Shown here: positions 30,735-51,782 of the stretch, piece after piece | Position numbering within the stretch: the stretch's first letter is position 1 | How the letters are laid out: each line of letters begins with the position of its first letter | Assembly: GCA_903864435.1 (NCBI GenBank) | Contig: CAIPFY010000155.1 | Location: forward strand, 1-51,782 | DNA: 51,782 bases | Source: an uncultured Chloroflexota bacterium | Lineage (GTDB): Bacteria > Chloroflexota > Anaerolineae > Aggregatilineales > Phototrophicaceae | Direction of reading: 5' to 3' | Position numbers and translations under genes: made by a program | The notes under the pieces: model-generated | What the model saw: the letters and a program-made list of their open reading frames with translations, nothing else | Told to the model about the DNA's origin: nothing | Database searches by the model: none

Positions 30735-32093
30735 TTACGCGCCCGCGCCGAACTCCGCCATGATCGCCGCCGCGTATTTAATCCCCTTGATGTAGTTATC
30801 GAGGTGGATGTTCTCGTCCGGTGCATGCAGGTTCGCGCCGGGGTTGGCGAATCCGGTCAGCACGCAGGGTATCCACACATGGCGCAGGATCGTCCCTTCG
30901 GCAGACACACCGTTGACGATGGGAATCTGCCCGTAGACGCGGGTCGCTGCGGCGATGACGGCCTGCGACATCGATTCTTTCACCGAGATTTTGTAAGGCA
31001 TCTCGGCAGTGCCGCGAAACACCACCTCAATATGCCCGAAACCGTGTTTCTTGAGATGGTCGCGCAGCTTGTCCGCCGCTTTGATCGGATCAATGTTCGG
31101 GATCAGGCGAAAGTCCATTTTCACCCGCGCTTCATTCGGCACAATGGTTTTTGATCCCACGCCGGTGTAGCCGCCGATGATGCCCTGAATGTTCGCGGTT
31201 GGCTCGAATGCACGCGCCTTGATCGCCTCGATGCCATCACGCCCTAGCGCGAACTGCGAGATGCCCCATTCGCGCTTCATATCGTCCAGATTCACGCGGC
31301 GCAGTTTATCCTCAAGCTGTTCGTAGTCCTCATCCTGAAGTTCATACAGCCCATCGTACCAGCCGTCAATCAGGATGCGGCGGTTCTCGTCCATGATGGT
31401 GTTCAGCGCCCGCACCAGATCCCAGATGGGGGATGGCAGCAACGGGAAGTTCAGCGAATGAATATCCGCATTCGCCCCGCGTGCGATCAGTTCGACCATC
31501 AGCACTGACTTCAGGCCGAGGTCAATATCCGGCAGGCCGGTGCTGGTATCCACCGAACCATCCAGACAGTGCATTCCGTCTGCCTCCAGCAGCGCGGTAT
31601 TTTTCTCGACCCAGGGGCCGAGGTGGATGCTGCCGATTTCTTCCTCGCCTTCGATGATGAATTTGAGGTTGACGGGCAGTTCGCCGCGCACTTTCATAAA
31701 CGCCTGTGCCGCCTTGTTGAAGGCCAGCACGCCGCTTTTGTTGTCGGTGCTACCGCGCCCGTACAACACGCCATCCACAATCGCCGCCGACCATGGGCCG
31801 CCATGCGTCCATGCTTCGATAGGCTCCGGCGGCTGCACGTCGTAGTGGCTGTAGCACAGCATGGTGCGCGACGAGCGCGGGGTGGTCATGTGCCCGGTGA
31901 TAACCGGCGGCCCGCCGTCCAGTTCGTGCAAATGCGCGTCTAAGCCGTCGTTCCGCATCATGTTCAGCACCACGTCGGCACATTCGCGCAGGCCGATGTT
32001 TTGCGCGGAGATGCTCGGTTGGCGCACCAGCGTTTGCAGATCGCGGATATATTCTTCGGCGTGTGCATCAATATAGTCGAAAATGTCCTGCAT
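30735..32093 (-). CDS. M20-family metallopeptidase (dipeptidase type)
   Basis: A 452-residue two-metal peptidase of the M20A/DUG1-like dipeptidase branch. Marks: YSHYDVQPPEPIEAWTHGGPW (metal His and catalytic Asp), GRGSTDNKSG (bridging Asp), EGEEEIGS (catalytic Glu pair), the lid-domain VKMDFRLIPNIDP, and a late His in ANLHAPDENIHLDNY. It should hydrolyse dipeptides or N-acyl amino acids in the cytoplasm. ATG at 32093 has GAGG at about 10 bases. It is the last gene of the leftward set that begins at gntR; 20 bases separate it from the SDR gene. Confidence 0.9.
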   Translation of the reverse strand: MQDIFDYIDAHAEEYIRDLQTLVRQPSISAQNIGLRECADVVLNMMRNDGLDAHLHELDGGPPVITGHMTTPRSSRTMLCYSHYDVQPPEPIEAWTHGGPWSAAIVDGVLYGRGSTDNKSGVLAFNKAAQAFMKVRGELPVNLKFIIEGEEEIGSIHLGPWVEKNTALLEADGMHCLDGSVDTSTGLPDIDLGLKSVLMVELIARGANADIHSLNFPLLPSPIWDLVRALNTIMDENRRILIDGWYDGLYELQDEDYEQLEDKLRRVNLDDMKREWGISQFALGRDGIEAIKARAFEPTANIQGIIGGYTGVGSKTIVPNEARVKMDFRLIPNIDPIKAADKLRDHLKKHGFGHIEVVFRGTAEMPYKISVKESMSQAVIAAATRVYGQIPIVNGVSAEGTILRHVWIPCVLTGFANPGANLHAPDENIHLDNYIKGIKYAAAIMAEFGAGA

Positions 32094-32113
32094 GCTGCAC
32101 ATCCTCTATCGTG

Positions 32114-32860
32114 TTATAGGGTGATTTGTCCCGCTCGAATTTGTTCCGACACGTCCCACGCGCTCAGGCGTTCCCCTGTCAGCCCTGCCGCGCCCTGCTT
32201 CGCCAGATACACGAAAGCCGGGGCGAGGAGTGCGGGGTCAACCCATTTCAGCTTCATTTCAGGGCTGTAGTTCGAGTCCGACATGGGCGTATTGATAGGC
32301 GCTCCCGGCGTGATGGTATTGACGGCGATATGGTGGGGCGCACCTTCCATCGAAAGGACTTTCATCAGTCCTTCTTGCCCGTGTTTGCCGGGGCAATACG
32401 CGCTCTCATTCACAAACCCTTTGATGCCCGATCCTGATGACAGCAAAACGATACTGCCGCCACCCGCCGCCATCATGGGCTGCCAGACCGCTTTGCACAG
32501 GAGAAAGGCCGCTTGCAGGATGATGTCCAACTCGCGCCGCCAGTTCTCGAAGCGAACCTCTGCAAATGGCACTTCGCGCAGCAGCGCCGCATTGTGTACC
32601 AGCACGCACGGCGTACCCAGTACCGCCAGCGCCTCATCTGCGGCGATCTGAGTAGCGGTTGCGTCGCTCAAATCCACCACAATCGGCAGGGCTTCGCCGC
32701 CGAGCGCCCGCACTTCATCCGCCACTTGGTTCAGGCGTTCGCGCTGCACATCCATCAGTGCCACGCGCATCCCTTCGGCGGCATACGCACGGGCAATGGC
32801 ATATCCCAAGCCCTGCGCCGCGCCTGTTAGAATCGCAGTTTTGCCGCGCAGGTCGCTCAT
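32114..32860 (-). CDS. Short-chain dehydrogenase/reductase
   Basis: A 248-residue classical SDR. NAD(P) motif TGAAQGLG (about 12-19), acidic Asp in ALMDVQRE suggesting NAD, VHNAA in place of NNAG, catalytic Ser in LLSSGSG and the Tyr-Lys pair in YCPGKHG. The final segment RAGQITL is ordinary. It would oxidise or reduce a hydroxyl/keto group. Its ATG overlaps the aminotransferase stop by ATGA, so the two act in the same pathway. Confidence 0.88.
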   Translation of the reverse strand: MSDLRGKTAILTGAAQGLGYAIARAYAAEGMRVALMDVQRERLNQVADEVRALGGEALPIVVDLSDATATQIAADEALAVLGTPCVLVHNAALLREVPFAEVRFENWRRELDIILQAAFLLCKAVWQPMMAAGGGSIVLLSSGSGIKGFVNESAYCPGKHGQEGLMKVLSMEGAPHHIAVNTITPGAPINTPMSDSNYSPEMKLKWVDPALLAPAFVYLAKQGAAGLTGERLSAWDVSEQIRAGQITL

Positions 32861-34029
32861 GCCCCCCTCAGCTTTCGGATGAAGTTCTGGAAGCGTTCCA
32901 GCCCTTCTTCAAAATCGGGCGAGCCTTTGGTCAGCGCCCCCCGGATGAAGCCTTCACCCGCGCCGCCGCCAATCGTCCCCGGTTGGAATACCAGACGGGC
33001 TTCTTCGCGGGCGCGGCGCACAAATTCGGCGCTGTTCAGTCCCGTCGGGCGAATGTCTATGAAAATATAGTACGCGCCCTGCGGCTTGCTGTAGGGAATC
33101 TGCACTTCATCCAGCGCCTTCATCCACGCGATGCGGCGGCGGTCATATTCTTGCAGGATCGGCTTGAACCAGTCCCGCGATTCGTTCAGCGCCGCCAGCC
33201 CCGCATACTGGGTGACGGTGTTGGCGCAGATCATCATGGCGTGGTGGAAAGGTAGCATGGCTTCGACGATGGCCGCCGGCGCGGCAATATAGCCCAGTCG
33301 CAGTCCCGTCATGCCGTAGCCTTTGGAGAAGCTGTTCATGGTGACAGTGCGCTCTTTCATGCCGGGGAGTGATCCCATGCTGGTGTGCTTGTTCCCGTCG
33401 AACACGTAGTATTCGTAAATTTCGTCCGAAACCACCATCAAATCATGCTTCTGCGCCAGCGACGCAATCTCTCGCAAACAGCTTTCCGGCAGCACCGTTC
33501 CGGTTGGGTTGTTGGGCGACACGATCACCAGCGCCTTCGTGCGCGGGGTGATGGCCGCTTCCAGCGCCGCCACATCAATCGTAAAGTTGCTCTCCGGCGT
33601 GGTCGCCACCGGAATGAGCTGACCACCGAGGATCAGGGTGTCGCGGGTGTACTCGTCGTAGTGCGGCGACGGCGTAAGCGCCTGATCGCCCGGATCGAGC
33701 AGGGTCATCAACGTCACCATCAGGGCTTCCTGCGCCCCGGAAGTGACGATGATTTCGGTATCGGGGTCGTATTCGATGCCGTTCTCGGCCTTGAGCTTGC
33801 GGGCGATGGCCTTGCGTAGCTCAGGGATTCCTGTCCATGCCGAATACTGCACGCGCTGGTTCCGAACCGCATCCTGCATTGCATCGAATACAGCGGCGGG
33901 CGGCACAAAGTCCGGCGTGCCGCTGCCGAGGTTAATCAGGCCGGGGATGGGGATTGAAGTCTGACCGCCCAACACGCCGCGAAGCTGCTTGGCGCGGTTG
34001 GAGAGATGCTTATCGAGGTTGATCGTCAT
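32857..34029 (-). CDS. Class I/II PLP aminotransferase
   Basis: A 390-residue fold-type I aminotransferase. The PLP-binding residues are intact: NNPTG, SDEIYEYYVFDG, and the Schiff-base Lys in SFSKGYGMTGLRLGY. It carries INLGSGTPDF near the start, as in aspartate/branched-chain enzymes. A close paralogue lies in the divergent operon (47179-48360) sharing ITPRTKAL and the general layout. Substrate unknown. ATG at 34029 with an AGGA-type site; 48 bases after the Gfo/Idh gene. Confidence 0.92.
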   Translation of the reverse strand: MTINLDKHLSNRAKQLRGVLGGQTSIPIPGLINLGSGTPDFVPPAAVFDAMQDAVRNQRVQYSAWTGIPELRKAIARKLKAENGIEYDPDTEIIVTSGAQEALMVTLMTLLDPGDQALTPSPHYDEYTRDTLILGGQLIPVATTPESNFTIDVAALEAAITPRTKALVIVSPNNPTGTVLPESCLREIASLAQKHDLMVVSDEIYEYYVFDGNKHTSMGSLPGMKERTVTMNSFSKGYGMTGLRLGYIAAPAAIVEAMLPFHHAMMICANTVTQYAGLAALNESRDWFKPILQEYDRRRIAWMKALDEVQIPYSKPQGAYYIFIDIRPTGLNSAEFVRRAREEARLVFQPGTIGGGAGEGFIRGALTKGSPDFEEGLERFQNFIRKLRGA

Positions 34030-34077: not shown

Positions 34078-35145
34078 TTATACAGTGATCCAGCGGCGTT
34101 CGGCGGAAGATTGCCGCAGCGCGTCCATCACAATCTGGCATTTCAGCCCATCCGCGAAAGTCGCTCCTTGTTTGGGCTGACGGCTTTCCCGGATGGCGGC
34201 GGTCGCTTCCTGAATGAGCGCCACGAACGACACGTTCCAGATGCCCTTGCCGATGCCGGGTAGGGCGGCGTTGGGGTCGCTCTCGCTCACATCCTGAAAA
34301 TCTTCGCCCACCCGCGCCAGCCACAGCTTTTCTTCGCCGTCGGATAGTTTGATCGTGCCTTCGCTGCCGAAAATTTGCACATGGTTGCCGATGGTGTGCC
34401 GCGCCACACCGCTGAGGAACACCGAGGCCAGCGCCCCGCTTTGCATCTCGGCAGTGAAGCTCAACTGGTCATCGGCGGTGGCTGTCCACGCTGCGCCAGT
34501 GTTTTTGTCACGGCGGTCAGGAACCCGTGTGGCAATTTGTCCGCTGATTGCGCCCAGATCGCCCAACCAGAAGCGCAGCAGGTCAAGCTGGTGCGAACCG
34601 TTCGCGCCCAACCGTCCGCCGCCCATCTCCGCCAGTGACCACCAATCGCCCTCTGGACGAGAAGCCGGATCGCCCCATGTGTTCGAGATATTCACGATGT
34701 TCACATGCTGGATGCTGCCGATAGCACCTTCGGCGATGAGCCGCTGGATTTTGCGGCGGTTGGGATTGAAACGCAGTTCATGACCGATCATGTGAACGCG
34801 CCCCAACGATTCGGCCTTTTCCAGCATTTGCCGCGACTCGTCACTGTTCATCGCCATCGGTTTCTCGCAGATGACGTGTGCGCCCGCTTCCAGTGCCGCC
34901 AGCGCCATCGGCGCATGGTAGACAGTCGGTGTGGCGATTCCCACCAGATCAACCGCGTGCTTGTCCAGCATTTCGCGCCAATCCGCATAGGCGTTAGGGA
35001 TGTTGAATTCGCCGGCCACGCCCCGCGCATTTTCGATGCGGGCGCTGGAGAGCGCCACCAGTTCCACATCCGGTATCGTCCGCAGCGCGGGCAGATAGGC
35101 AGCTTTGGCGAAGCTCGCGCCAATTACGGCAGCTCGAATGGTCAT
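34078..35145 (-). CDS. Gfo/Idh/MocA-family oxidoreductase
   Basis: A 355-residue NAD(P)-dependent oxidoreductase. The Rossmann start is IRAAVIGASFAKAAYLPAL (a GASFAK in place of GxGxxG), and the family hallmark is VICEKPMAMNSDESRQM with the catalytic EKP Lys. The His-rich substrate block appears as LGANGSHQLDLLRFWLGD. Members oxidise sugars, inositols and related polyols or reduce imines. The unusual first motif lacks the middle glycines, so cofactor binding may be adjusted. ATG with AAGGGG; 19 bases after the 459-residue gene. Confidence 0.9.
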   Translation of the reverse strand: MTIRAAVIGASFAKAAYLPALRTIPDVELVALSSARIENARGVAGEFNIPNAYADWREMLDKHAVDLVGIATPTVYHAPMALAALEAGAHVICEKPMAMNSDESRQMLEKAESLGRVHMIGHELRFNPNRRKIQRLIAEGAIGSIQHVNIVNISNTWGDPASRPEGDWWSLAEMGGGRLGANGSHQLDLLRFWLGDLGAISGQIATRVPDRRDKNTGAAWTATADDQLSFTAEMQSGALASVFLSGVARHTIGNHVQIFGSEGTIKLSDGEEKLWLARVGEDFQDVSESDPNAALPGIGKGIWNVSFVALIQEATAAIRESRQPKQGATFADGLKCQIVMDALRQSSAERRWITV

Positions 35146-35164: not shown

Positions 35165-36544
35165 CTACCATAGCCCACGTTGTTTAAGCACATCACCCAC
35201 AGCCGTCAAACCCGCCAGTTCCGCTTCGGAATAGTTGCGGGAGATCATCACGCCGCTGGCACCACCATCGAAGGCCGCGTTCACGCCGTCGCGCACTTCT
35301 TCGGGGGTGATCGGCTTGCTCTTGCCGCCGTCGCCCACGCCCACACCAATCCCCGAATATACCTTGCGTCCGGTATCCGCGATCAGGTTGGCCGTCCACT
35401 GTTTGACATATTCGGCTTTGAAACCGGCCATCGGCGCTTCTGCGCGTGGCGCGATGAATTCGTTCAGATTGAGGATGGTCGCCAGCGCGTTATATGCCCC
35501 GTCCGGCGTGGCATCCGCCAGCACGCCCTTGTGCCAGCTGTCAGCGAAGTTGGCGAACCGCGCCCCTGCCGGAGTGTGGTACAGCACCGGTTTGAACCAG
35601 TCGGCATACTGCGCATATTCGGATTGGTCATACTGCGCTTTGGCATACGGGTTATAGGTGTTAATCACCTGCCAGACGCCCAGACCGACTTCGTTCTTGG
35701 GATTAAAGAAACGAATCTGACCGGAAATGTCGTGGTACATATCGCGGTGCGCGTCTACCCACATCTTTTCCCACATTAGCACTTCGGGGTTATTCAGCAG
35801 GTGGCGCAGCAGTGTGACGAACACGCCATCACGCGGACGTTCACCTTTGCGCACGCCCTGTAGGAACAGGTCAATCTTCTGGTAGCCTTCAATCGCCCGC
35901 TGCGGGTCAATGCCGCGTGCCCGCGCCTCGGCTTTGAAATACTCATCGAAGCCCGTCGAGCCATCAGCGCGGAAAATATCCATCAGCGGGCTGTGGCGTT
36001 CGATGCCCCACAGCATCCCACTAAGCGCGTGGTTGCTGAACCAATCGCTGATGACCGATTTCCACCATGCGCGGTAGTGCGGGTTCATCAGCGACGGACG
36101 GCTGGCGGTGCGCCCCCAGTGGTCGCGGTCAAGGAAGTGCGTGAACCCCGGCTGCCAGATCGAACGAATGCCGGAACTGGAGGTTTCGCAATAATACGGA
36201 TAGACCTTCATGCCGCGCTTTTGCGCCGCCGGAATCACATCGCGGAAGGTGTCGAAGCCTTTATACAGCGCGTCGGGCGCGGCAAACTGCTTGTGGAACG
36301 TGCCTTCGTAGTGCGCCGGATCGGGCTGGAAGAACGCGCCACCCTGCAAATTGTCCGGTTGCGCCACACCATGATCGGGGAAGCCGTATACGGCGCGTCC
36401 GGCGTTGCCATAGCTCCATGACAGCGCCGAGATCAACAGCGCGTTCACGCCGGCTTTTTCTTGCAGGATGTCTAATACCTGCTCCACGCCTTCATCAATG
36501 AAACTGATCGCGCCAATCTGAACACCTACAAATGTTTTTGCCAT
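35165..36544 (-). CDS. Unassigned 459-residue protein, probable TIM-barrel hydrolase
   Basis: I do not recognise a named family. The sequence suggests a beta/alpha barrel: VGVQIGAISF, ALLISALSWSYG, GMKVYPYYCETSS, then PSLMNPHYRAWWKSVISDWFSNHALSGMLWGIERHSPL and late GVMISRNYSEAELAG. The pattern of moving away from a strand-end Tyr/Cys/Glu and the WGIERHSPL segment resembles hypothetical glycoside-hydrolase-like proteins. There is no signal peptide, so it would act on imported material. It lies between the ABC permeases and a Gfo/Idh enzyme in a sugar- or opine-like context. Candidate acids are Glu in YYCETS and Glu in WGIERH. Confidence 0.7.
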   Translation of the reverse strand: MAKTFVGVQIGAISFIDEGVEQVLDILQEKAGVNALLISALSWSYGNAGRAVYGFPDHGVAQPDNLQGGAFFQPDPAHYEGTFHKQFAAPDALYKGFDTFRDVIPAAQKRGMKVYPYYCETSSSGIRSIWQPGFTHFLDRDHWGRTASRPSLMNPHYRAWWKSVISDWFSNHALSGMLWGIERHSPLMDIFRADGSTGFDEYFKAEARARGIDPQRAIEGYQKIDLFLQGVRKGERPRDGVFVTLLRHLLNNPEVLMWEKMWVDAHRDMYHDISGQIRFFNPKNEVGLGVWQVINTYNPYAKAQYDQSEYAQYADWFKPVLYHTPAGARFANFADSWHKGVLADATPDGAYNALATILNLNEFIAPRAEAPMAGFKAEYVKQWTANLIADTGRKVYSGIGVGVGDGGKSKPITPEEVRDGVNAAFDGGASGVMISRNYSEAELAGLTAVGDVLKQRGLW

Positions 36545-36645: not shown

Positions 36646-37566
36646 CTACCGCCCGCGCAAACGCGGATCGAGGAAGTCGCGCAGCCAGTCGCCGAGGATG
36701 TTCAGCGACAGCACCGTGAGCATGATGGCGAGTCCGGGGAAGAAGGCCGGCCACCATTTGCCCGCCAAAATCTGGTCGCGGCTTTCGTTCAGGATGCCGC
36801 CCCATGTGGGAACGGTCGGCGGTACGCCGAGGCCGAGGAACGATAGGGATGCTTCCGCCAGAATCGCGCTCGCCACATTGAAGGAGGCAATGACGATCAG
36901 CGGCGCGAGTACGTTCGGCAGGATGGAACCCCACATGATGCGTCGGTCGCGTGCGCCCATGCTGCGCGCCGCTTCCACATATTCTTTTTCGCGCTGCGAG
37001 ATGGTCTGCCCGCGTGCGATTCGGGCATAAGTCACCCACTGACCGATGCCTAGAACCGGGATCAAATTCCACACGCCCGGCCCCAGCACGACCAGCACCA
37101 TAATCGCCAGTAAGATGAAGGGGAAGGCCAGCTGAATATCGGCAAGGCGCATGATAATGTCGTCCACGCGCCCCCCGCGATAGCCCGCGACGACGCCCAG
37201 AGAGGTTCCTAGCAGGCCGCCCACCATGACGGCCATCACGCCCACCGCCAGCGACACCTGTGCGCCGTAGATGATGCGCGACCACAGATCGCGCCCTAAG
37301 CCGTCCGTCCCCAGAAAATACTTGATCGTGCCGTCCGGGTTGTACGTCATCGGTTCTTTCAGGCGTTCGATTAGATTCTGACGGTTCGGATCAGCCGGGG
37401 TGATGTGCTGCGCGAAAAGTGCCATGAACACCACAATGCCGAGAATGAGAAGCGCCAGAATAGGCCATTTTGCTTTCAACAGGCTGCGAGCCGCCCGCTT
37501 CCATGTTGGCAGCGGGGGCGGCATCAGGCTCACCGGAAGGGCGCGGGATGATGTCGTTGTTGCCAT
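36646..37566 (-). CDS. Peptide/opine-type ABC permease (DppC-like)
   Basis: A 306-residue inner-membrane permease with six helices. N-terminal LLKAKWPILALLILGIVVFMALFA, the periplasmic block FLGTDGLGRDLWSRIIYGAQVSL and the EAA loop EAARSMGARDRRIMWGSILPN are characteristic of the OppC/DppC family. It pairs with the DppB-like permease 4 bases upstream. No OppD/OppF ATPase gene follows in the window. Confidence 0.92.
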   Translation of the reverse strand: MATTTSSRALPVSLMPPPLPTWKRAARSLLKAKWPILALLILGIVVFMALFAQHITPADPNRQNLIERLKEPMTYNPDGTIKYFLGTDGLGRDLWSRIIYGAQVSLAVGVMAVMVGGLLGTSLGVVAGYRGGRVDDIIMRLADIQLAFPFILLAIMVLVVLGPGVWNLIPVLGIGQWVTYARIARGQTISQREKEYVEAARSMGARDRRIMWGSILPNVLAPLIVIASFNVASAILAEASLSFLGLGVPPTVPTWGGILNESRDQILAGKWWPAFFPGLAIMLTVLSLNILGDWLRDFLDPRLRGR

Positions 37567-37570: not shown

Positions 37571-38548
37571 TTACCTTAACCGGATGCGCGGATCAAGCTG
37601 CGCGTAAATGATGTCCACAATGAGATTCAGGCCAATGAATAAGACCGCGAAAACCACCACCGAAGCCTGAACCACCGGAATATCGCGCTGAGTGATGGCG
37701 TTTGTCACCAACCGTCCCACACCCGGCCATGAAAAGACCGTCTCGGTCACGACCACGCCGCTGAGCAGGAAGCCAAACTCCAGCCCCAGCATCGTCACAA
37801 CCGGAATCAGCGCGTTGCGGAAAGCGTGCTTGATGATGACCACGCGCTCCGACAGACCTTTGGAACGTGCTGTGACCACATAATCTTGCGAGAGGACTTC
37901 CAGCATGGAGGAGCGTACCAGACGGGCATTACGCGATAACGAGAACAGGCCGATGGTAATGGCGGGCATAATCAGGAAGGTGATGGCCTTCGGGATGTTG
38001 CTTAACGCCTGTCCCCAATCGCCTTGCAGCATCAGGTCAATCACCGGCACATGCCCGGAGATGGGCAGCCATTTCAACTGCAAGCCCACTGATAGGATAA
38101 GCATGATGCCTAGCCAGAAACCGGGAATAGACTGTCCGAACATCGCCACCAGCATGATGCCGCCATCAGTCGGCGTGCCGCGTCGTACCGCAGAGATGAT
38201 GCCGATGGGGATGGCGACGAGTGTGGAAATGAGCATGGCGAAGAGGGTCAGTTCCAGCGTGGCAGGCAACCGCTGCATGACCAGATCAACCGCAGGCTGC
38301 CGCGAACGGATGGACATGCCCAGATCACCGCGCATGAGTCCGCTGATAAAGCTGAAATACTGCTCGGTCAGGGGCTTATCAAAGCCCAGTTTGGCGCGGG
38401 TCGCTTCGATTTCTTCCTGACTGGCGCGTTCACTGACGTAGAGATAAGTGGGATCGCCATCCAGATGGATTGTGAGGAAGGAGAGCAGCGTAACGCCGAT
38501 AATGACAAACACAGATTGCAGCAAACGCTGCACAATGTAGGGTCCCAT
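37571..38548 (-). CDS. Peptide/opine-type ABC permease (DppB-like)
   Basis: A 325-residue permease with the DppB/OppB pattern: MGPYIVQRLLQSVFVIIGVTLL at the start, the long periplasmic loop with LGFDKPLTEQYFSFISGLMRGDLG, and the EAA-like loop VVTARSKGLSERVVIIKHAFRNALIPVVTMLG. The frame is open 14 codons upstream; the ATG at 38548 is chosen because the family start follows and AGGA precedes it. Confidence 0.92.
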   Translation of the reverse strand: MGPYIVQRLLQSVFVIIGVTLLSFLTIHLDGDPTYLYVSERASQEEIEATRAKLGFDKPLTEQYFSFISGLMRGDLGMSIRSRQPAVDLVMQRLPATLELTLFAMLISTLVAIPIGIISAVRRGTPTDGGIMLVAMFGQSIPGFWLGIMLILSVGLQLKWLPISGHVPVIDLMLQGDWGQALSNIPKAITFLIMPAITIGLFSLSRNARLVRSSMLEVLSQDYVVTARSKGLSERVVIIKHAFRNALIPVVTMLGLEFGFLLSGVVVTETVFSWPGVGRLVTNAITQRDIPVVQASVVVFAVLFIGLNLIVDIIYAQLDPRIRLR

Positions 38549-38618
38549 AAGTCCTATTCCAGAAATGGGGAGTGGGACGAGATGCCCCACCCCCCGGATT
38601 CATTACTATTGGACTGGG

Positions 38619-42983: not shown

Positions 42984-42988
42984 ATTGC

Positions 42989-43970: not shown

Positions 43971-44848
43971 ACGTTCGCACGAATTCTGAACGACTGGTTT
44001 CTGTATCTGTGATGGGGCAAATTGCCTCCCCCGGTTTCCCCGGTTTGCCCGCTGAACCGTATCGTCTGGATGCTGATGGCAAGCCCTTTTTGCTGCCTAC
44101 TTACGGCGGCATTGTCTATAACGTTTCGGTAGGCGACTCGGCCTACGGTTGGCTGGCCGATACCATTCATCCCGGCGTCAGCATTTCGCTCAAGGATGAT
44201 ATGGGGAATCGCGGCCTGAATCTGTTCGCCTGCGTGGGGAATACGGCTGTGGTGATGTCGGGTGATGCGCGGGGCGCTAAAGGCGTGGTCAGCGGCAAAT
44301 CCGGGCGCTTTTCGGAACAGGTCATCATTCACTTCGCCAAAGCGGATCGCTTAAAAATGGCGATTGGCGACAAGATTAATGTGCGCTCGGTGGGGGTGGG
44401 CATGGAACTGGCGAATCACCCCGACATTAAACTGAAAAGCTGTTCGCCTGAATTTCTGGAAAATCTGGAAGTGACGACGGGCGCAGATGGCAAGCTGCAT
44501 GTGCCAGTGGTCGCTGTTGTCCCGCCGCATTTGCTCGGTTCGGGCGCGGGGCTAACCAGCGAGGGCGGTTCGCTGCACATTCAATCTGCCGACAAGTCCG
44601 CGCTCAAAGAAGCCGGACTGGACGGCTTGCGTTTGGGCGATGTGGTGGCGCTTTCGGATTACGACAGCAGTTGGAATCACGGCTATTTGCGCGGCGCAGT
44701 CGGCATCGGCGTGATCGGGCAAGGCGACAGCCCGCGTGCGGGTCATGGCCCCGGCATCACCCTGCTGATGACCTCGGCACTGAATGGAATCAATCCGGTG
44801 GTCACGCCCGGCGTTAACCTCAAAAGCGTGTTCAGCTTGCAGGAGTGA
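43967..44848 (+). CDS. DUF4438 protein, copy 2
   Basis: A 293-residue paralogue of copy 1: VSVMGQIASPGFPGLPAEPY, GGIVYNVSVGDSAYGWLADTIHPGVSISL, FACVGNTAVVMSGDARGAKGVVSGKSGRF, VVPPHLLGSGAGLTSEGGSLHIQ, LRLGDVVALSDYDSSWNHGYLRGAVGIGVIGQGDSPRAGHGPGITLLMT. The same HGPGI end is conserved. The tight ATGA overlap and full length of both copies suggest that they form a heteromer. Sequence identity by eye is moderate, so the duplication is old. Confidence 0.88.
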   Translation: MNVRTNSERLVSVSVMGQIASPGFPGLPAEPYRLDADGKPFLLPTYGGIVYNVSVGDSAYGWLADTIHPGVSISLKDDMGNRGLNLFACVGNTAVVMSGDARGAKGVVSGKSGRFSEQVIIHFAKADRLKMAIGDKINVRSVGVGMELANHPDIKLKSCSPEFLENLEVTTGADGKLHVPVVAVVPPHLLGSGAGLTSEGGSLHIQSADKSALKEAGLDGLRLGDVVALSDYDSSWNHGYLRGAVGIGVIGQGDSPRAGHGPGITLLMTSALNGINPVVTPGVNLKSVFSLQE

Positions 44849-44928: not shown

Positions 44929-45393
44929 ATGGAAAAAACCTACATTAAGCACATGGCTTTTGCTGTCCGCGATGCACATGCGGCGCTGAAAACCTATCAG
45001 GATTTGCTAGGCATTGGCTACGATGCCAAAGTGGAAGATTATCCCAAGTCGCGGAATCGTGTGGCGCTATTCTGGGTGGGCGATGTTGAATATCAGCTTT
45101 GCCAATCGCTGGATGCCGGTGGGCGCTTTGATAAATGGATCAATGAACGTGGCTACGAAGGGCTGCATCACATTTGCTACGCTGTCCCCGACATTGAAAA
45201 AGGGCTGGCAGACGCACAGGCTAAAGGCGCTACGCTGAAAGAATGCAGCGCGTGTAAAGTGAAGGGCAGCCATGTTCACCCCGAAGGTTGGGTGGCGTTT
45301 CTCGATCAAGAAGCGGGTGGTATCGAACTGGAACTGATGCAGGTCTATACCCCCGAACAACTGGAACAATACAAAAAGGTCAAGGGGATTTGA
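44929..45393 (+). CDS. VOC-family protein (methylmalonyl-CoA epimerase-like)
   Basis: A 154-residue vicinal-oxygen-chelate protein. It starts IKHMAFAVRDAHAALKTYQDLLG (metal His) and has GLHHICYAVPDIEKGLADAQAKG (second metal His) and the acidic ligand near the C-terminus in GGIELELMQ, as in methylmalonyl-CoA epimerases. Many such proteins are 2-epimerases of acids or lactoyl-type enzymes. ATG at 44929 with AGGGGG at good spacing; an in-frame ATG eight codons upstream lacks a site. Followed after 2 bases by the dehydrogenase gene. Confidence 0.88.
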   Translation: MEKTYIKHMAFAVRDAHAALKTYQDLLGIGYDAKVEDYPKSRNRVALFWVGDVEYQLCQSLDAGGRFDKWINERGYEGLHHICYAVPDIEKGLADAQAKGATLKECSACKVKGSHVHPEGWVAFLDQEAGGIELELMQVYTPEQLEQYKKVKGI

Positions 45394-45395: not shown

Positions 45396-46463
45396 ATGCC
45401 TATCACCTTGATTCGCGTTCCGGTTGATTCTCTCGAAACCTTTGTTTTTGAAACATTCTGTGCGCTCGGCGTGGTGCCGGATGAAGCGCGGCGCTGTACA
45501 CGCGGGCTGATGGAAAGTGAACTGCGCTGCTTGCCCGGTCAGGGGCAGGGGGTTCGCCGCCTGCCTGTATACCGCGAACGCATTGGCAACGGCTGGATCA
45601 TCCCCGGCGCGCCCTACGAAATTGTGAAGGAATCGCCCGCGCTGGCGCTGGTGGACGGACATAACGGCCTCGGCTCGGTGGTCGCGCAAAAGTCTATGGA
45701 ACTGGCTGTTCAGAAAGCCAAGATCAGCGGCGTGGGCACGGTGATTGTGCGCAACAGCACGCATTTTGGTTCGGCGGCGGTTCCGGCGCGGCTGGCGCTG
45801 GCACAGGATTGTATCGGTATTGCAATGACCAACGCTGGCCCGGAGATGGCTCCTTGGGGGGCATCCAGCGGCGTGGTCGGCACGAACCCTTGGGGCCTTG
45901 TCGCGCCAACGGGCGGCGATTTCCCGGTGGTACTCGATATTGCGCTGACGACGGCTGGCAAAGGCATGATGCGCTGGTTTGAGCGCGAAGGTCTCAAAAT
46001 GCCGTTGGACTGGGCGCTCACGCCAGAAGGCGAAGAAACTGATGATCCGACTGCGGCTATGCAAGGGGCGCTGCTGGGCATTGGTCAGCACAAGGGTTAT
46101 GGACTTTCGATGATGACCGATGTCATCACCGGCGTGATTGCAGGCGGCGGTTTCGGCCTCGCGCCGTATTCCAACCCGGCTAAACAGGATGTGTCGCACA
46201 CCTTTATCGCCATTGATATTGCGTGGTTCATGCCGGTGGACACGTTCAAAGCCCGCATGGATGAGTTTATCCAGCAGATCAAATCGGCTCGCAAGCGCCC
46301 CGGTGTGACGGAAATTCTCGTCCCCGGTGAACTGGATTACCGCCGTGAACAGCAGTACCGCCGCGACGGTGCGCAGTTAGACTCGGTGGTGTTTGACGAG
46401 TTGGCGGCGCTGGCGCGTGATCTGGGTGTGAATTTCCCCTTTGCGCGTGAGGTTGTGGTCTAA
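45396..46463 (+). CDS. Ldh2/malate/ureidoglycolate dehydrogenase family
   Basis: A 355-residue NAD(P)-dependent 2-hydroxyacid dehydrogenase of the type II malate/L-lactate/sulfolactate/ureidoglycolate family, unrelated to classical LDH. Marks: MESELRCLPGQGQGVRRLPVYRERI, RNSTHFGSAAVPARLA with the catalytic His, GTNPWGLVAPT, VVLDIALTTAGKGMM, and QHKGYGLSMMTDVITGVIAG. The longer upstream frame overlaps the VOC gene and is rejected; ATG at 45396 has AAGGGGAT. It would interconvert a 2-hydroxy and 2-oxo acid in the pathway. Confidence 0.9.
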   Translation: MPITLIRVPVDSLETFVFETFCALGVVPDEARRCTRGLMESELRCLPGQGQGVRRLPVYRERIGNGWIIPGAPYEIVKESPALALVDGHNGLGSVVAQKSMELAVQKAKISGVGTVIVRNSTHFGSAAVPARLALAQDCIGIAMTNAGPEMAPWGASSGVVGTNPWGLVAPTGGDFPVVLDIALTTAGKGMMRWFEREGLKMPLDWALTPEGEETDDPTAAMQGALLGIGQHKGYGLSMMTDVITGVIAGGGFGLAPYSNPAKQDVSHTFIAIDIAWFMPVDTFKARMDEFIQQIKSARKRPGVTEILVPGELDYRREQQYRRDGAQLDSVVFDELAALARDLGVNFPFAREVVV

Positions 46464-47182
46464 TGACCGATCTTCAAGCGCCCGAAACACTTGCACGTCC
46501 GCTGGCAACCCGCGTTGCTGGCCTGCCCGAAGCCGCTGTGATGCCTGCCGGCGCTCCTATTCCCGATGTGGTGATCGCTGCGGCGGTTGCGGCGCTGGAA
46601 CAGGGCAAGACCCACTATACCGATCGCCCCGGCATTCTCGGCCTGCGTCAGTGGGTGAGCGATACCCTGAAGGGTACTGCTCAGATTAATCTCAAACCCG
46701 GTGACATCACGATCACCTGCGGCTCCACCGAAGCCCGTTTTGTCACGTTCAAGCGGCTGCTCAAACCCGGCGAAACCATCCTGTGTCCGGGCGATTCGTC
46801 GCGCATTCTCGGCGCGGCACACCTGATCGGCCTGTCTATCGTCACCACCGCCGCCGACCCAACGGCGGTGCGCCTTGTGTATCTGACGCCTGATGTGCCA
46901 GCCGCAGAGCGCGACTCGCTGCTCACGCAGGCCGCCGCCCATCAGTGGTGGGTGCTGTGGGACATCAGCGCCGCTTCCTCGGATTTCCATCCGGCGCAGA
47001 ACACCGCCCTCGCGCCCCGCGTCATTACGGTTGGCAGCCTCAGCCCCATGATGCCCGGTTGGCGCGTGGGCTGGATGGGCGGGTCGGAAATGGCCGATAA
47101 ACTCCGCGCCTATAAACAAAGCATGACTATCTGCACCACCAGCATTTCTCAATGGGCAGGAATCGGAGCCGTAGTACCATGA
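46463..47182 (+). CDS. Truncated aminotransferase-like protein without PLP lysine
   Basis: A 239-residue protein that aligns by eye with the large domain of class I/II aminotransferases but stops before the C-terminal small domain. Recognisable are GKTHYTDRPGILGLRQW, ITITCGSTEARFVTF, WWVLWDISAASSDF (Asp167 at the DEIY position) and VGSLSPMMPGWRVGWM. In active enzymes the last reads SFSKxxxMxGWR with the Schiff-base Lys; here residue 195 is Pro, so no PLP catalysis is expected. The NPTG motif is also lost. It ends SISQWAGIGAVVP, overlapping the intact aminotransferase by ATGA. The clean frame and position suggest a maintained partner protein or a decaying duplicate. Confidence 0.8.
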   Translation: MTDLQAPETLARPLATRVAGLPEAAVMPAGAPIPDVVIAAAVAALEQGKTHYTDRPGILGLRQWVSDTLKGTAQINLKPGDITITCGSTEARFVTFKRLLKPGETILCPGDSSRILGAAHLIGLSIVTTAADPTAVRLVYLTPDVPAAERDSLLTQAAAHQWWVLWDISAASSDFHPAQNTALAPRVITVGSLSPMMPGWRVGWMGGSEMADKLRAYKQSMTICTTSISQWAGIGAVVP

Positions 47183-48360
47183 CCGCCTCGAATATCCCTG
47201 AATCGGTACGTGCGGTTGCCGCTGATGGCACTCAACTCCGGTACGCACTCATGGAGCTTTCTGCTCAGTACCCGGACGCGATTGCGTTGGGGCGCGGTGA
47301 TCCCGACCTTGCCACGCCGCCGCACATTATCGAAGCGGTCAAGCTGGCGGTACGTGACCAGCGTACCGCGCCTACACCCGTCGCGGGAATGACGGCGCTG
47401 CGCGAGGCGCTGGCGCATAAGTTCCAGACGGATAACGGGCTGCCCGTAGATGCCGACAACATCATGCTGACCACCGGCGGGCAGGAGGGGTTATTCCTGC
47501 TCATGCAAACCCTGCTCGACCCCGGCGATGAAGTCCTCGTCCCTGACCCGCGCTACACCTCGTATGACGAAGCCATCGAGAGTGCGGGCGGGCGCATGGT
47601 GATGATCCCGACTGACCATGAGGATGCGTTCAACCTGCGCCCCGAAGCGGTTGAATCTGCCATCACGCCGCGTACCAAAGCCCTGCTGATCGTCACGCCT
47701 AGCAATCCGACCAGCGGCATTGTCACCGAAGAACGCCTGCGCGGAATCGCAGAAGTGGCTATCAAGCACAACCTGATCGTGATTTCGGACGAAATCTACG
47801 AGAAGTTCTTGTATGACGGCTGGAAGCATTTCAGCATCGGTTCTCTGCCCGGTATGGCGGAACGCACGATTACGCTGAACGGCTTCTCCAAAACCTATGC
47901 GATGACCGGCTTTCGCTGCGGGTTTGCCGCCGCGCCTAAGAACTTCATTCGCGCCATGACCAATGTCAAAGCCGTCACCACTGGCCCGGTGGCGACCATT
48001 TCACAGTGGGCGGGGCTGGCGGCGCTCAATGGCCCGAAAGAACCGATTGAAACCTTCCACCGCATCTACAGTGAGCGCCGCCGCCTGATGATGGACGGCT
48101 TGCTCAGTATGGGGCTGAGTTTCAGTGATCCTCGCGGCGCGTTCTTCCTGTGGACGAATAGTTCATCGGTCGGGATTCACGCCACTGAACTGTCGTATTT
48201 GCTGCTCAAAGAAGGCCGCGTCCTCATCTTCCCCGGCACTGGTTTCGGTGAAAATTGGGGCGGTTATCTGCGAATCAGCATTTTGCAGAACACGGATTTG
48301 CTCCACGAAGCCTTGGAACGCATGCGTCCGATTATTAATCGTTACCGCGCTGCCCATTAA
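47179..48360 (+). CDS. Class I/II PLP aminotransferase
   Basis: A 393-residue aminotransferase with complete PLP sites: SNPTSG in place of NNPTG, SDEIYEKFLYDG, and Lys in NGFSKTYAMTGFRCGF. It is a paralogue of the enzyme at 32857-34029 and of the degenerate protein just upstream, sharing the ISQWAGLAAL block with the latter. The ATG at 47179 (ATGA overlap) is preferred to an in-frame start 27 bases earlier. It should move an amino group onto or from the 2-oxo acid handled by the Ldh2-type enzyme. Confidence 0.92.
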   Translation: MTASNIPESVRAVAADGTQLRYALMELSAQYPDAIALGRGDPDLATPPHIIEAVKLAVRDQRTAPTPVAGMTALREALAHKFQTDNGLPVDADNIMLTTGGQEGLFLLMQTLLDPGDEVLVPDPRYTSYDEAIESAGGRMVMIPTDHEDAFNLRPEAVESAITPRTKALLIVTPSNPTSGIVTEERLRGIAEVAIKHNLIVISDEIYEKFLYDGWKHFSIGSLPGMAERTITLNGFSKTYAMTGFRCGFAAAPKNFIRAMTNVKAVTTGPVATISQWAGLAALNGPKEPIETFHRIYSERRRLMMDGLLSMGLSFSDPRGAFFLWTNSSSVGIHATELSYLLLKEGRVLIFPGTGFGENWGGYLRISILQNTDLLHEALERMRPIINRYRAAH

Positions 48361-48414
48361 AGGGTGCCATTCACGATAGGGATTTCGAGAGCGTTATACA
48401 AAAGGATGGTTCTG

Positions 48415-49395
48415 ATGACCGATCTGAAGATTGGCTCTGTTACCGCTGCACCCGGTACTCGTGTGCGCGGGGTTATTCCAGTGACTCAGCTTCCCGGTGG
48501 GCGTCCGCTTGAAATCCCGATCATTGTGCTGAACGGCGCTCAACCTGGCCCGTGCGTGTGGGTGGATGCGGTCATTCACGGGGATGAACCGGAAGGGACG
48601 CTGTGCTGTCATCTGGTGGATGCGGTACTCGACCCGGCTCAGATGCGCGGCAGCGTCGTCCTCGTCCCTGTACTCAACGTGCCGGCCTATGAAGCCGCCC
48701 AGCGTGGCAACCCGCTGGATACGTTCAGCTACGATCTGAACCGTATCTATCCCGGCAAGGCCGATGGCTACCTGACCGAACGGTTGGCACACACACACAG
48801 CATATGGCTGCGGGATGTGGCGACATACGAAATCTCGATTCATTCCGGCGGGGCGCATTCGTATCTTTCAGAGACGATTTTTGCCACCACCGATGAAAAG
48901 GCGATTGAACTGGCGAAAGCAATGGGCGCGGGCTGGGGATTGATCCTCAAGAGCTTCCTGCCCAAAGGTAGCCCGCCTGCGGTGATGTTTGAAGCTGGCA
49001 AACAGGGGATTACGGTTGAACTGGGCGGACGGCCTGCCACCTCCCCGCGTGATTTTGACCGCTGCGGGCGCGTGCTGGCAGAAGGCGTACTCAATGTTCT
49101 GCGCTACTACGGCGTGATCGAAGGACAGGCTACCCGTGCGGATAAGTGGTTGACGGGGGTGCAGCATGCGTTGTTAGCGCCCACCAGCGGCCTGTTTCTG
49201 GCGGAACCCTCGTTAGAATTTCAGAAGCCGATGAAAAAAGGCGATCGCATCGCCCGCATTATGGACGTGTACGGCGATCTGTTGGCGGAAGTGCTGGCGC
49301 CTGTGGACGGCATGATCTTCGGCCTGCGGGCGCTACCGAATGTTCAAACCGGCGATTGGTGTTGTTTCTACGCCGAAATTCAGGGCGAGCTATAA
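48415..49395 (+). CDS. AstE/AspA-like zinc deacylase
   Basis: A 326-residue M14-fold carboxypeptidase-like enzyme of the succinylglutamate desuccinylase/aspartoacylase group, which removes acyl groups from N-acyl amino acids. Zinc ligands are in VIHGDEPEG (His, Glu) and IHSGGAHSY (His); the C-terminal half GLFLAEPSLEFQKPMKKGDRIARIMD is a biotinyl-like beta domain common to the family. Upstream in-frame ATGs are rejected because AAAGGA fits the one at 48415. Family members act on ectoine-derived N-acetyl-diaminobutyrate in some bacteria, but no ectoine hydrolase is present here. Confidence 0.87.
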   Translation: MTDLKIGSVTAAPGTRVRGVIPVTQLPGGRPLEIPIIVLNGAQPGPCVWVDAVIHGDEPEGTLCCHLVDAVLDPAQMRGSVVLVPVLNVPAYEAAQRGNPLDTFSYDLNRIYPGKADGYLTERLAHTHSIWLRDVATYEISIHSGGAHSYLSETIFATTDEKAIELAKAMGAGWGLILKSFLPKGSPPAVMFEAGKQGITVELGGRPATSPRDFDRCGRVLAEGVLNVLRYYGVIEGQATRADKWLTGVQHALLAPTSGLFLAEPSLEFQKPMKKGDRIARIMDVYGDLLAEVLAPVDGMIFGLRALPNVQTGDWCCFYAEIQGEL

Positions 49396-49399: not shown

Positions 49400-50563
49400 A
49401 TGGCTCTCCCGCTTGTCCAATCGTTACTGACTGATCTGGTGCGAATCCCTTCGCCCAACCCGCCCGGCGACACCCGCGCCATTGCCGCCCACATTGCCGC
49501 CGTAATGAGCGCGGCAGGCTGTGAAACGCGCATTCTCGCGCCGCCAAACAAGCCCGAAGCGCAAAGCGTGATTGCGGTGTGGGGCGCGGGCGACCCGGTG
49601 ATTATGCTCCACGCGCACATTGATACCGTGCCGATCGCCCAGAACGAGGCGCAGCACTGGAGTGTTGATCCTTACGAGGCTGTTGTTCGCAACGGCAAAC
49701 TGTACGGCAAAGGCAGCGTGGATGATAAAGCGCCGCTGGCCGCGATGATGACCGCCATCCTCGATGCGGCGCAGCGTGGCGAAGCGCCGCAGGGGACGCT
49801 CGTTCTGGTGGCTGCCGCTGAGGAAGAAACGGGCGGGCGTTTAGGCACGCGCTGGTTAGCCGATGCCGGTCATTTGCCCCAGTGTGATTTTATCATCGTG
49901 GGCGAACAGACCCACAACCGCGCCGCTACTGCCCACAAAGGCGTGATGCGTGCCACCGTCCGCGCCACTGGGCGCTCGGTTCATGCCACCAACCCGGATC
50001 GTGGCGTGAATGCCATCACCGCAATGGCGCGGGCGGTGCTGGCGCTGGAAGCCTACCACCGCGACCTTAGCCAGCGCCCGCACCCGATGGTCGGCGTACC
50101 GACCTGCAACGTGGGTGTGATACAGGGCGGCAGTACCGCCAACGCGGTACCCGACTCGTGCGCCGTCTATCTTGACCGGCGCATGGTTCCCCGCGAAGAC
50201 CCTGCTGCTGTTCAAGCCGAGATGAAAGCGGTGATCGAGAAGGTGCAGGCGGGCGAAGCACAGCTTTCGATTGGCGACTTTCAGGTATCGAACTGGTTCG
50301 AGTCAACGGTTGAGTCGCCGCTGGCGAAACGCTTTTTGGACTGCATCCAGAAGGAATTGGGCGCTGATCCCGGCCCAATCGGCTATTTACCCGGCAGCGA
50401 TGCCAAACACCTGACGGGCGCGGTGCGTGGCGAAATGGTCATCTTTGGCCCCGGTAGCTATGAAGTCGCCCATGCGTATGATGAATATGTGGACTTGCGC
50501 GAACTGCAATCAACCACCACTATTTTGATCGCATTCGTCAGTCAAACCCTATTCAATAAGTGA
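49400..50563 (+). CDS. M20-family amidohydrolase (ArgE/DapE-like)
   Basis: A 387-residue two-metal hydrolase. Marks: IMLHAHIDTVPI (metal His, catalytic Asp), YGKGSVDDKAPLAAM (bridging Asp), AAAEEETGGRLGT (Glu pair), the dimer-lid SVHATNPDRGVNAI, and a late His in VAHAYDEYVDL. Similar to acetylornithine deacetylase, succinyl-diaminopimelate desuccinylase and carboxypeptidase G. It hydrolyses N-acyl or N-carbamoyl amino acids. The start at 49400 lies 4 bases after the previous stop with only a weak ribosome site, so it is probably translationally coupled. Confidence 0.9.
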   Translation: MALPLVQSLLTDLVRIPSPNPPGDTRAIAAHIAAVMSAAGCETRILAPPNKPEAQSVIAVWGAGDPVIMLHAHIDTVPIAQNEAQHWSVDPYEAVVRNGKLYGKGSVDDKAPLAAMMTAILDAAQRGEAPQGTLVLVAAAEEETGGRLGTRWLADAGHLPQCDFIIVGEQTHNRAATAHKGVMRATVRATGRSVHATNPDRGVNAITAMARAVLALEAYHRDLSQRPHPMVGVPTCNVGVIQGGSTANAVPDSCAVYLDRRMVPREDPAAVQAEMKAVIEKVQAGEAQLSIGDFQVSNWFESTVESPLAKRFLDCIQKELGADPGPIGYLPGSDAKHLTGAVRGEMVIFGPGSYEVAHAYDEYVDLRELQSTTTILIAFVSQTLFNK

Positions 50564-50579
50564 ATTTGGAAAAACCATT

Positions 50580-51782
50580 TTGAGAGTTCAAACCCTCATC
50601 ACCAACGGTCAGGTTGTCACCGAAACAGGTATCGAGGCGCTGGATGTCGCCATTGACGGCGGGCGCATTGTCGCGCTGGCGGCACGCGGCACAGCGATCG
50701 AAGCCTCCGAAGTGATTGATGCGGCGGGCGCGTTTGTCATCCCCGGCGCGATTGATATTCATTTCCATTGCCGCGCACCGGCCTACCCCGATCGCGGCGA
50801 CTTCGCTACCGAAACGCAGGCGGCGGCAGCGGGCGGCGTCACCACCATTTTCGAGATGCCCATTTCCAAGCCGTGCTGTGCCACCGGCGAAATCTTCCGC
50901 GCCCGCAAAGCACTGGGCGAAGCCAACGCATATGTCAACTTTGGTCTGTACGGTGCGCCCGGTCTGCTGGACAGGCGCGAAATCCGCGAGATGGTGGACG
51001 AAGGCGCGATTGGCTTCAAAATCTTCATGACGGGCGCACCCGCAGGCCGCAACGACGAGTTTGAAGGGCTGTGCCTGCCGCATGTTCCCGAACTGTATCA
51101 GGGCATGAAACTGGTGGCTGAAACCGGGCTGGTTTGCTCGGTTCACGCGGAGAATGACCAGCTGCTGGAATGGCACAGTGCGCAGCTCCGCGCCGCCAAC
51201 CGCAACGATGTGGCCTCGCACGGCGAATCGCGCCCCCCGCATGTGGAGGCGCTGGCAGTTGCCACGCTGTTCTCGCTGAACAAAACCGCCAATGTGCGCC
51301 TGCACATCGCTCATCTTTCCTCCAGCGAAACGCTCGAAATCTTCCGGCAGTTCAAAGCGGCGGGCGCGCCGGGGACTGCCGAAACCTGCCCGCACTATCT
51401 CCTGTTCACTGAAACCGATATGGAGCGCGTCGGGCCGTATGCCAAGATCAACCCGCCGCTGCGCAAACAGGGCGATGTGGATGCGCTGTGGGGCGGAATC
51501 GCGGATAACACGCTGATCGCAGTCACCACCGATCATTCACCTTTCACCGTCGAAGAAAAAGAACGCGCCCGTACCGACATCTGGCGCACGCCTCCCGGTT
51601 CCCCCGGCGTGGAAGAACTGGTACTGGGCATGATGGACTCTGCGCTGAAAGGCCGCTTCAGCATACAGAAGGCGGTGAAGCTCATCAGCACCAACGGCGC
51701 GAAGCGTTTTGGCCTGTATCCGCATAAAGGCGTCATTGCTGTGAATGCGGATGCCGATCTGGTCATCTATGACCCGAACGTG
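50580..51782 (+). CDS. Cyclic amidohydrolase (dihydroorotase/hydantoinase/allantoinase type), runs off the window
   Basis: The first 401 codons of a metal-dependent cyclic amidohydrolase; no stop before the window end. Metal-site residues: His-x-His in IDIHFHCRAP, the carboxylated Lys in GFKIFMTG, His in SVHAEN, His in HIAHLSS and Asp in TTDHSP. It opens cyclic ureides or imides (hydantoin, dihydropyrimidine, allantoin, dihydroorotate). The start is most likely TTG at 50580, because no ATG or GTG precedes VQTLITNGQVV at a sensible place; GGA lies about 9 bases before. It follows the M20 enzyme by 16 bases, and the pair could act in sequence: ring opening, then N-carbamoyl or N-acyl cleavage. 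Confidence 0.87.
   Translation, partial: MRVQTLITNGQVVTETGIEALDVAIDGGRIVALAARGTAIEASEVIDAAGAFVIPGAIDIHFHCRAPAYPDRGDFATETQAAAAGGVTTIFEMPISKPCCATGEIFRARKALGEANAYVNFGLYGAPGLLDRREIREMVDEGAIGFKIFMTGAPAGRNDEFEGLCLPHVPELYQGMKLVAETGLVCSVHAENDQLLEWHSAQLRAANRNDVASHGESRPPHVEALAVATLFSLNKTANVRLHIAHLSSSETLEIFRQFKAAGAPGTAETCPHYLLFTETDMERVGPYAKINPPLRKQGDVDALWGGIADNTLIAVTTDHSPFTVEEKERARTDIWRTPPGSPGVEELVLGMMDSALKGRFSIQKAVKLISTNGAKRFGLYPHKGVIAVNADADLVIYDPNV

Follow-up and report, generated by a model that had tools for sequence, protein, structure and literature searches.

Contig CAIPFY010000155.1 of an uncultured Chloroflexota bacterium (family Phototrophicaceae; GenBank assembly GCA_903864435.1) raises the question of why a 20-gene cluster of catabolic appearance carries a short aminotransferase frame directly in front of a full-length aminotransferase gene, and what compound this cluster degrades. 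The window, meaning the whole stretch of DNA analysed, is this contig (C155) over its 51,782 nt, one of 464 contigs in an assembly of 5.39 Mb, and it ends where the contig ends. The initial annotation of positions 30735 to 51782 listed two intact aminotransferases; both (AT1 and AT3) are present, and a third, short and conserved one (AT2) had been overlooked. We consider it reasonably probable that the cluster is a divergent catabolic regulon for a peptide- or opine-like conjugate, in which AT2 and AT3 form a heterodimer with a composite active site and a tandem of DUF4438 proteins forms a second couple. The three aminotransferase genes are as follows.

32857..34029, minus strand: AT1, canonical class I/II aminotransferase (PF00155), tyrosine and lysine both there by residue check
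46463..47182, plus strand: AT2, 239-aa lysine-less aminotransferase-fold subunit shortened at its C-terminus (profile, residues and model)
47179..48360, plus strand: AT3, full-length aminotransferase (PF00155), lysine present and trans tyrosine lost (residues)

The AT2 and AT3 aminotransferases

Aligned with class I/II aminotransferases, AT2 covers their N-terminal two thirds and is without both the pyridoxal 5′-phosphate (PLP) lysine and the C-terminal domain. An AT2 profile applied to 98 genomes of the window's family, with up to 26 candidates per genome scored, gave a match at an E-value of 1e-30 in 49; the sole match in G042, a 370-aa frame of 115.8 bits, was taken as a generic aminotransferase, leaving 48 genomes that carry AT2. 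AT2 is found in 47 of the 53 family genomes bearing DUF4438, and in four of the six without it (G064, G065, G067 and G083) a contig ends beside the cluster. G007 has the AT2-AT3 pair and no DUF4438 match; its contig ends inside the Ldh2-type dehydrogenase gene, therefore nothing follows from that absence. The profile matches directly before AT3 in 27 of 31 family loci, with no match there in G005, G012 and G023 and too early a locus end in G045, and in 25 of 31 readable loci the AT2 stop codon overlaps an ATG that is in frame with AT3. Loss of the pair from G005 and G012 was considered and rejected, the two genes being gone from the DUF4438 operon but standing together at another locus. These second clusters (L218 and L219) have no DUF4438 and hold GntR, Ldh2, AT2-AT3 and SBP5-OppBC genes, with a VOC gene in L218 and an SDR gene in L219. 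In the six closest sequence pairs, all from one genus, the ratio of nonsynonymous to synonymous substitution rates (dN/dS) is 0.15-0.20 for AT2 and 0.09-0.17 for AT3. The AlphaFold2 model of AT2 has a pLDDT of 89.6 and a pTM of 0.86, and its two best Foldseek matches are to Thermus aspartate aminotransferase (TM-scores of 0.74 and 0.73 by query length).

In other genomes of the class and phylum, the AT2 slot is occupied by a full-length protein with lysine (G225_15), by full-length proteins with histidine or alanine in its place (G429_47 and G700_24), or by a shorter lysine-less frame (298 aa in G380, 245 aa in G343). The region of G225 spanning L098 and L099 (joined coordinates ~17600-31000) contains two AT2-AT3-like pairs, the first AT2 with lysine and the second with proline instead. 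A 560-aa frame of this genome was rejected as an AT2-AT3 fusion; only AT3 is represented in its aligned part, and AT2 lies before it in a frame of its own (428 aa). Outside Chloroflexota, the pair occurs in two Trueperaceae bins (L150 and L151) and in one Acidobacteriaceae bin (L161), which has a canonical enzyme too. A search of the phylum sample, in which six candidates per genome were scored and from which no absence is drawn, gave AT2 matches in 6 of 400 genomes; those in G467, G535 and G694 are canonical enzymes with tyrosine and lysine present.

The tyrosine compared here is Tyr64 in Thermus numbering and Tyr70 in the classical aspartate aminotransferase. Tyr70 acts on the cofactor of the partner subunit. 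It is located at the subunit interface, in contact with the PLP phosphate (PMC6715241). Tyrosine and lysine were compared in 37 AT2, 37 AT3 and 105 other aminotransferases of the studied loci, rows being dropped only as duplicates. AT2 has the tyrosine in 37/37 sequences and the lysine in 1 of 36 readable ones; AT3 has the tyrosine in none of 35 (L206 is unreadable there through an alignment gap, L149 through a gene cut by the contig end) and the lysine in all 36 that are readable. Both residues are present in 104 of the 105 other enzymes, the last being cut. Adding six further pairs (AT2 tyrosine 5/5 readable and lysine 0/6; AT3 tyrosine 0/6 and lysine 6/6), the readable totals become 42/42 for tyrosine and 41/42 for absence of lysine in AT2, and 42/42 for lysine and 41/41 for absence of tyrosine in AT3. 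Within this set, therefore, only aminotransferases behind an AT2 miss the tyrosine.

AT2 also carries a KQ-x-x-T-I-C segment (Q and C in 36/36), at which AT3 mostly reads G-P (G 33/36, P 26/36) and the other aminotransferases read H-x-x-x-I (102/103 at both positions); the segment may contact the active site of the partner subunit. AT3 keeps the cis-site residues of a functional class I/II aminotransferase, with Asn in 30/30 and Asp, Tyr, Lys, Arg and Arg each in 29/29 readable sequences (one gene is cut by the contig end). It aligns over nearly its full length with the class I gamma aspartate/aromatic aminotransferases 1bjw, 1gd9 and 1dju, whose checked cis residues it shares and whose fold the AT2 model has; unlike the canonical aminotransferases of these loci, which hold tyrosine and lysine in one chain, the two residues lie here on separate chains. 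In a tree of these proteins AT2 splits from the rest with a support of 0.988 and all 37 AT3 sequences fall in one clade (0.937), suggesting that the pair probably had a single origin, or very few, and that its two members have remained associated since.

On the grounds of residues, pairing and selection, we infer that AT2 and AT3 would pair as an obligate heterodimer that shares a single composite active site, an arrangement also proposed for the serine palmitoyltransferase of eukaryotes. The central aminotransferase of the window's family and of some other genomes would then be this heterodimer, in which AT3 would hold PLP via its lysine and AT2, a shortened paralogue with its own site lost, would reach over the dimer interface with the tyrosine that AT3 has lost. 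AT2 would probably also supply the KQ-x-x-T-I-C segment missing in AT3, so that each heterodimer would have a single composite site. For LCB1/LCB2, too, the working hypothesis holds that one subunit is lysine-less and that each heterodimer has a single active site (PMC3794620). AT2 and AT3 show this combination of a lysine-less subunit and a lysine-bearing partner, and they resemble LCB1/LCB2 (SPTLC1/SPTLC2) as a paralogous PLP pair proposed to be heterodimeric. They differ in being a bacterial class I/II aminotransferase, in the size of the dead subunit (~239 aa in the window's family) and in a partner that has lost its trans tyrosine. Literature searches on pseudoenzyme or heterodimeric aminotransferases, judged by titles and the starts of abstracts, found none.

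The frame at 46463-47182, though short, is no broken gene; it encodes a conserved aminotransferase of half length that is coupled to AT3. AT2 is truncated and misses catalytic residues, its identity to the window copy is 38-60% and thus below that of its neighbours, and the profile search met one to three stop codons within 16 matched stretches, as would be expected of a decaying pseudogene standing in front of AT3 by chance; such an origin is hardly credible, however, given that the stops are out of frame in 12/12 stretches checked, that dN/dS is low in the closest pairs, that the fold is confidently modelled and that the partnership with AT3 recurs at a second locus. A more serious contender, although still unlikely, is that AT2 acts as a regulatory or chaperone partner of AT3, stabilising it or binding an effector without completing its active site. 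The absence of lysine and C-terminal domain, the coupling to AT3 and the presence of the Asp and Arg equivalents in 29/32 sequences would all suit such a partner, but it leaves unexplained the exchange itself, in which the tyrosine is gone from every readable AT3 and present in all readable AT2, and both residues stand together in 104 of the 105 other enzymes (the last being cut).

Several observations weigh against the composite-site heterodimer. One AT2 (G225_15) retains its lysine, and the equivalents of Asp203 and Arg242 are retained in 29/32 AT2 sequences each, so that AT2 may bind PLP or may need these residues for folding. AT2 and AT3 sequences are related, and the residue counts represent few events rather than independent ones. 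A Tyr70Phe mutant of E. coli aspartate aminotransferase is reported to be partly active, so that AT3 alone might work. In two family genomes (G023 and G077) the DUF4438 pair stands without AT2, and no reason for this was found. Among the 14 closest pairs listed, AT2 dN/dS rises to 0.52, at a dS of ~0.9 in more distant pairs. Lastly, in the 60 loci from named genomes (described below) that lie outside the 20-locus family set, 42 have two canonical aminotransferases without AT2, 8 have one, 6 have none and 4 have AT2; the regulon therefore does not require the AT2-AT3 pair.

Gene layout and the divergent promoter region

The 20 genes lie in two runs, 11 on the minus strand (30735-42995) and 9 on the plus strand (43104 to the contig end), diverging from a 108-bp gap at 42996-43103. 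The initial annotation described about 20 genes in two runs facing away from one promoter/operator region, and this layout is borne out by the gap, two promoter matches and a palindrome; the gene types that it named were likewise found in their places by Pfam. It also noted 4-nt overlaps, which occur at five junctions: AT1/SDR, epimerase/GfoB, GntR/epimerase, DUF4438a/b and AT2/AT3. The remaining features are listed in order of position.

30735..32102, minus strand: M20 peptidase (M20a; PF01546), a rare member
32114..32860, minus strand: SDR dehydrogenase (PF00106), 4-nt overlap with AT1
34078..35145, minus strand: Gfo/Idh/MocA oxidoreductase A (PF01408)
35165..36544, minus strand: 459-aa protein of a family without a name, homologues in other phyla
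36646..37566, minus strand: OppC-type permease (PF00528)
37571..38590, minus strand: OppB-type permease (PF00528)
38619..40196, minus strand: family 5 solute-binding protein (SBP_bac_5, PF00496)
40286..41338, minus strand: Gfo/Idh/MocA oxidoreductase B (GfoB; PF01408)
41335..42294, minus strand: NAD-dependent epimerase (PF01370), start set at 42294, giving a 4-nt overlap with the GntR stop
42291..42995, minus strand: GntR-FCD regulator (PF00392 and PF07729)
42989..43018, plus strand: sigma70-type promoter match for the plus run (12/12)
43033..43047, no strand: palindrome TGTCGACATTCGACA, predicted GntR operator, between the two promoter matches
43061..43090, minus strand: sigma70-type promoter match for the minus run (12/12)
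43104..43970, plus strand: DUF4438a (PF14505 and PF20999), conserved His/Glu set present
43967..44848, plus strand: DUF4438b (PF14505 and PF20999), most of the His/Glu set gone
44929..45393, plus strand: VOC/glyoxalase-like protein (PF13669)
45396..46463, plus strand: Ldh2-type dehydrogenase (PF02615), nearest solved chains 1v9n and 2x06
48364..49395, plus strand: AstE/AspA-like deacylase (PF24827)
49401..50563, plus strand: M20 ArgE/DapE-family deacylase (M20b; TIGR01910), start read at 49401
50580..51782, plus strand: hydantoinase/allantoinase-like cyclic amidohydrolase (PF01979), cut by the contig end, nearest solved chain 1gkr (L-hydantoinase)

Both sigma70 matches in the divergent region reach 12/12, and shuffled sequences yield 0.7 matches at the lower limit of 9/12. 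The palindrome TGTCGACATTCGACA occurs once in the window against 0.04 expected. Of 33 other loci, 8 have an exact TGTCG-N5-CGACA near the start of DUF4438a and 4 have a copy that differs by one base; the remaining 21 have neither form of this crude pattern there. The GntR-FCD gene passes both Pfam cut-offs, with 66.3 bits for the GntR HTH domain (cut-off 27) and 83.1 bits for the FCD domain (cut-off 24.3), and begins at the gap; GntR is the putative regulator of both runs.

The 459-aa protein had no match in Pfam or NCBIfam at an E-value of 0.001 and no convincing solved relative in a PDB search; its homologues in loci of other phyla, the only loci searched, share ~33-39% identity. The M20 gene at 30735 had been counted as a member of the unit; it is present, but M20a genes are cluster members in 4 of 49 compared loci, the window included and some loci stopping short of that slot. 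Outside the cluster, at 16724-23827, an ADP-ribosylglycohydrolase gene adjoins genes for a Bmp-type binding protein, two BPD_transp_2 permeases and an ABC ATPase, a separate importer unit with nucleosides as possible cargo. A 374-aa frame at 23941-25065, with no Pfam match at 1e-5, lies between this unit and an M42 peptidase gene.

Spread of the regulon and the DUF4438 pair

Gene order in the family genomes is nearly identical to that of the window, and the cluster does not lack conservation in relatives. In relatives the plus run continues past the point where the contig ends, extending beyond the amidohydrolase with M14, M24, Amidohydro_1, MFS, DHDPS, SDR and M32 genes, not all of which are in every locus. 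DUF4438 is found in 53 of the 98 family genomes with exactly two matches in each. In the wider samples it occurs in 8 of 298 genomes from the class (one of these under the cut-off) and 23 of 400 from the phylum, where it is partly single-copy. The DUF4438 pair is a marker of the unit.

When named genomes were scanned with an alignment of DUF4438b, 130 loci were obtained, of which the best 80 were used; some are contigs already represented among the other loci studied. Homologues were counted at an identity of at least 33%, and loci were truncated at 10 kb or wherever a contig stopped. This truncation depresses the counts, and chance neighbours may inflate those of generic families (GntR, OppB). 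Besides DUF4438a and DUF4438b, each in all 80, these loci contain Ldh2 in 75, an aminotransferase in 72, VOC in 66, M24 in 60, the cyclic amidohydrolase in 59, the 459-aa protein in 58, GfoB in 57, Amidohydro_1 in 54, M32 in 51, AstE in 42, GntR in 40 and SBP5 in 34. Amidohydro_1 is the best kept of 17 families compared outside the family set, with a median identity of 69% in 50 loci. The 80 loci come from Anaerolineae, Sphaerobacter, Trueperaceae, many Alphaproteobacteria, Gemmatimonadota, Acidobacteria and one actinomycetotal record, about six phyla as taken from record titles, many of which belong to metagenome bins and may be wrong. L139, titled Pleurocapsa minor, probably bears its cyanobacterial name through mislabelling or contamination (compare G029:C17 in the window's family). 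A search for DUF4438b on plasmids gave no match. Literature searched for DUF4438 yielded nothing, and searches via DUF4438 and TM1086, the latter judged by titles, found no description of the regulon, in keeping with the original view of it as undescribed; the titles for TM1086 were medical, cell-biological or on worms, apart from a paper on a crystallisation method. The regulon is large, shared by many unrelated bacteria and apparently undescribed.

Both DUF4438 genes of the window pass the Pfam gathering cut-offs (153.9/150.7 and 164.1/132.9 bits against 24.9/27), and the copies form two old clades, with a support of 0.949 for b and of only 0.439 for a under a root chosen by hand. Clade a (91 distinct sequences) has invariant H63, E65, H109, H245 and H253, and 15 other DUF4438 proteins have H in 10, E in 11, H in 15, H in 13 and H in 14 at these places. 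Clade b (90 distinct sequences) mostly reads C, H, S, Q and Y, with exceptions of Glu at the second place in 2, His at the fourth in 2 and His at the last in 5, the window copy among these last. This loss suggests that DUF4438a and DUF4438b are a second active/inactive couple, more loosely supported than AT2-AT3. The DUF4438a model has a convincing likeness to TM1086 only among solved structures, and the structure search found no other convincing fold relative. Family and fold are thus shared with TM1086 (3dcl, 3n99), whose PDB entry names no function; unlike TM1086, the proteins here are two old paralogues in tandem. Another DUF4438 tandem, outside both clades and with differing neighbours (clusters c23, c36, c40 and c41), is found at L105, L107 and L117 in genomes of f99.

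Substrate and pathway

The cluster encodes an Opp/Dpp-type importer with no ATPase gene among the 20, which presumably borrows ATPases from elsewhere. Near it stand amide hydrolases, namely M20, AstE-like and cyclic amidohydrolase enzymes, joined in relatives by M14, M24, M32 and Amidohydro_1, the last near Xaa-Pro and arginine dipeptidase/carboxypeptidase types. With these and the other enzyme types present, the substrate is most simply read as a small conjugate, peptide-like or opine-like, that carries a sugar-like part; the first proposal for it, a cyclic amide or N-acyl bond combined with a sugar-like part, is reasonable but no more than that. The conjugate would be taken up by the importer and trimmed by the several amide hydrolases, after which its amino-acid part would be processed by aminotransferase and Ldh2 dehydrogenase and its sugar-like part by the Gfo/Idh pair and the epimerase. 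Glycation products, mycosporines, muropeptides and rhizopines were considered as substrates and dropped for want of evidence.

All NCBIfam function models weighed score below their cut-offs, with the exception of the broad ArgE/DapE model for M20b (TIGR01910, 233.3 bits against 217.6), and no substrate is therefore named. The GntC guanitoxin cyclodehydratase model (NF041364) gives 338.7 for AT1 and 315.3 for AT3 against 415, and the L-sulfolactate dehydrogenase model (NF040650) gives 232.0 for Ldh2 against 500. Degradation of hydantoins, allantoin or another cyclic ureide would fit a hydantoinase-like amidohydrolase, an M20 enzyme and an Ldh2 protein distantly similar to ureidoglycolate dehydrogenase, but is quite improbable: the allantoinase models score 302.5 against 631 and, for AllB (TIGR03178), 290.3 against 357.85 (the contig end cuts the window gene, so that the AllB score is too low by some amount), ureidoglycolate dehydrogenase scores 155.4 against 356, and the peptidases and the Gfo/Idh pair are left unexplained. 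Still more doubtful is a pathway of the ectoine/2,4-diaminobutanoate type, which would combine an M24 hydrolase, an AstE-like deacetylase and an aminotransferase. M24 and AstE-like genes do stand together in many loci, as in the ectoine-degradation clusters with DoeA and DoeB, and the sole NCBIfam match of AstE is DoeB (TIGR02994); that match, however, lies far under the cut-off (109.1 against 402.7), no NCBIfam model matches the G017 M24 protein at 1e-30, and AstE is absent from many family loci. The remaining gene set is also unlike that of ectoine-degradation clusters.

Returning to the conjugate as substrate, the regulon looks like a catabolic one of ordinary design that holds a likely novel form of PLP heterodimer with a lysine-less subunit. 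There is perhaps an even chance for a fuller proposal, in which an aminotransferase site has been divided over two genes by reciprocal loss, AT3 giving the lysine and small domain and the half-length AT2 the trans tyrosine, within a cross-phylum regulon for a common nutrient, and DUF4438a and DUF4438b make up another pair of catalytic and dead paralogues, of an unassigned enzyme type. If the heterodimer is real, a homodimeric PLP enzyme has been caught turning into an obligate heterodimer, with apparent intermediates still extant (full-length with lysine, full-length without lysine, and half-length), and one route to pseudoenzyme subunits would become directly testable. The presence of the regulon across these phyla, from marine Rhodobacterales to soil bacteria, indicates that its substrate is probably common, and DUF4438, a family with a structure released in 2008, gains a defined pathway context.

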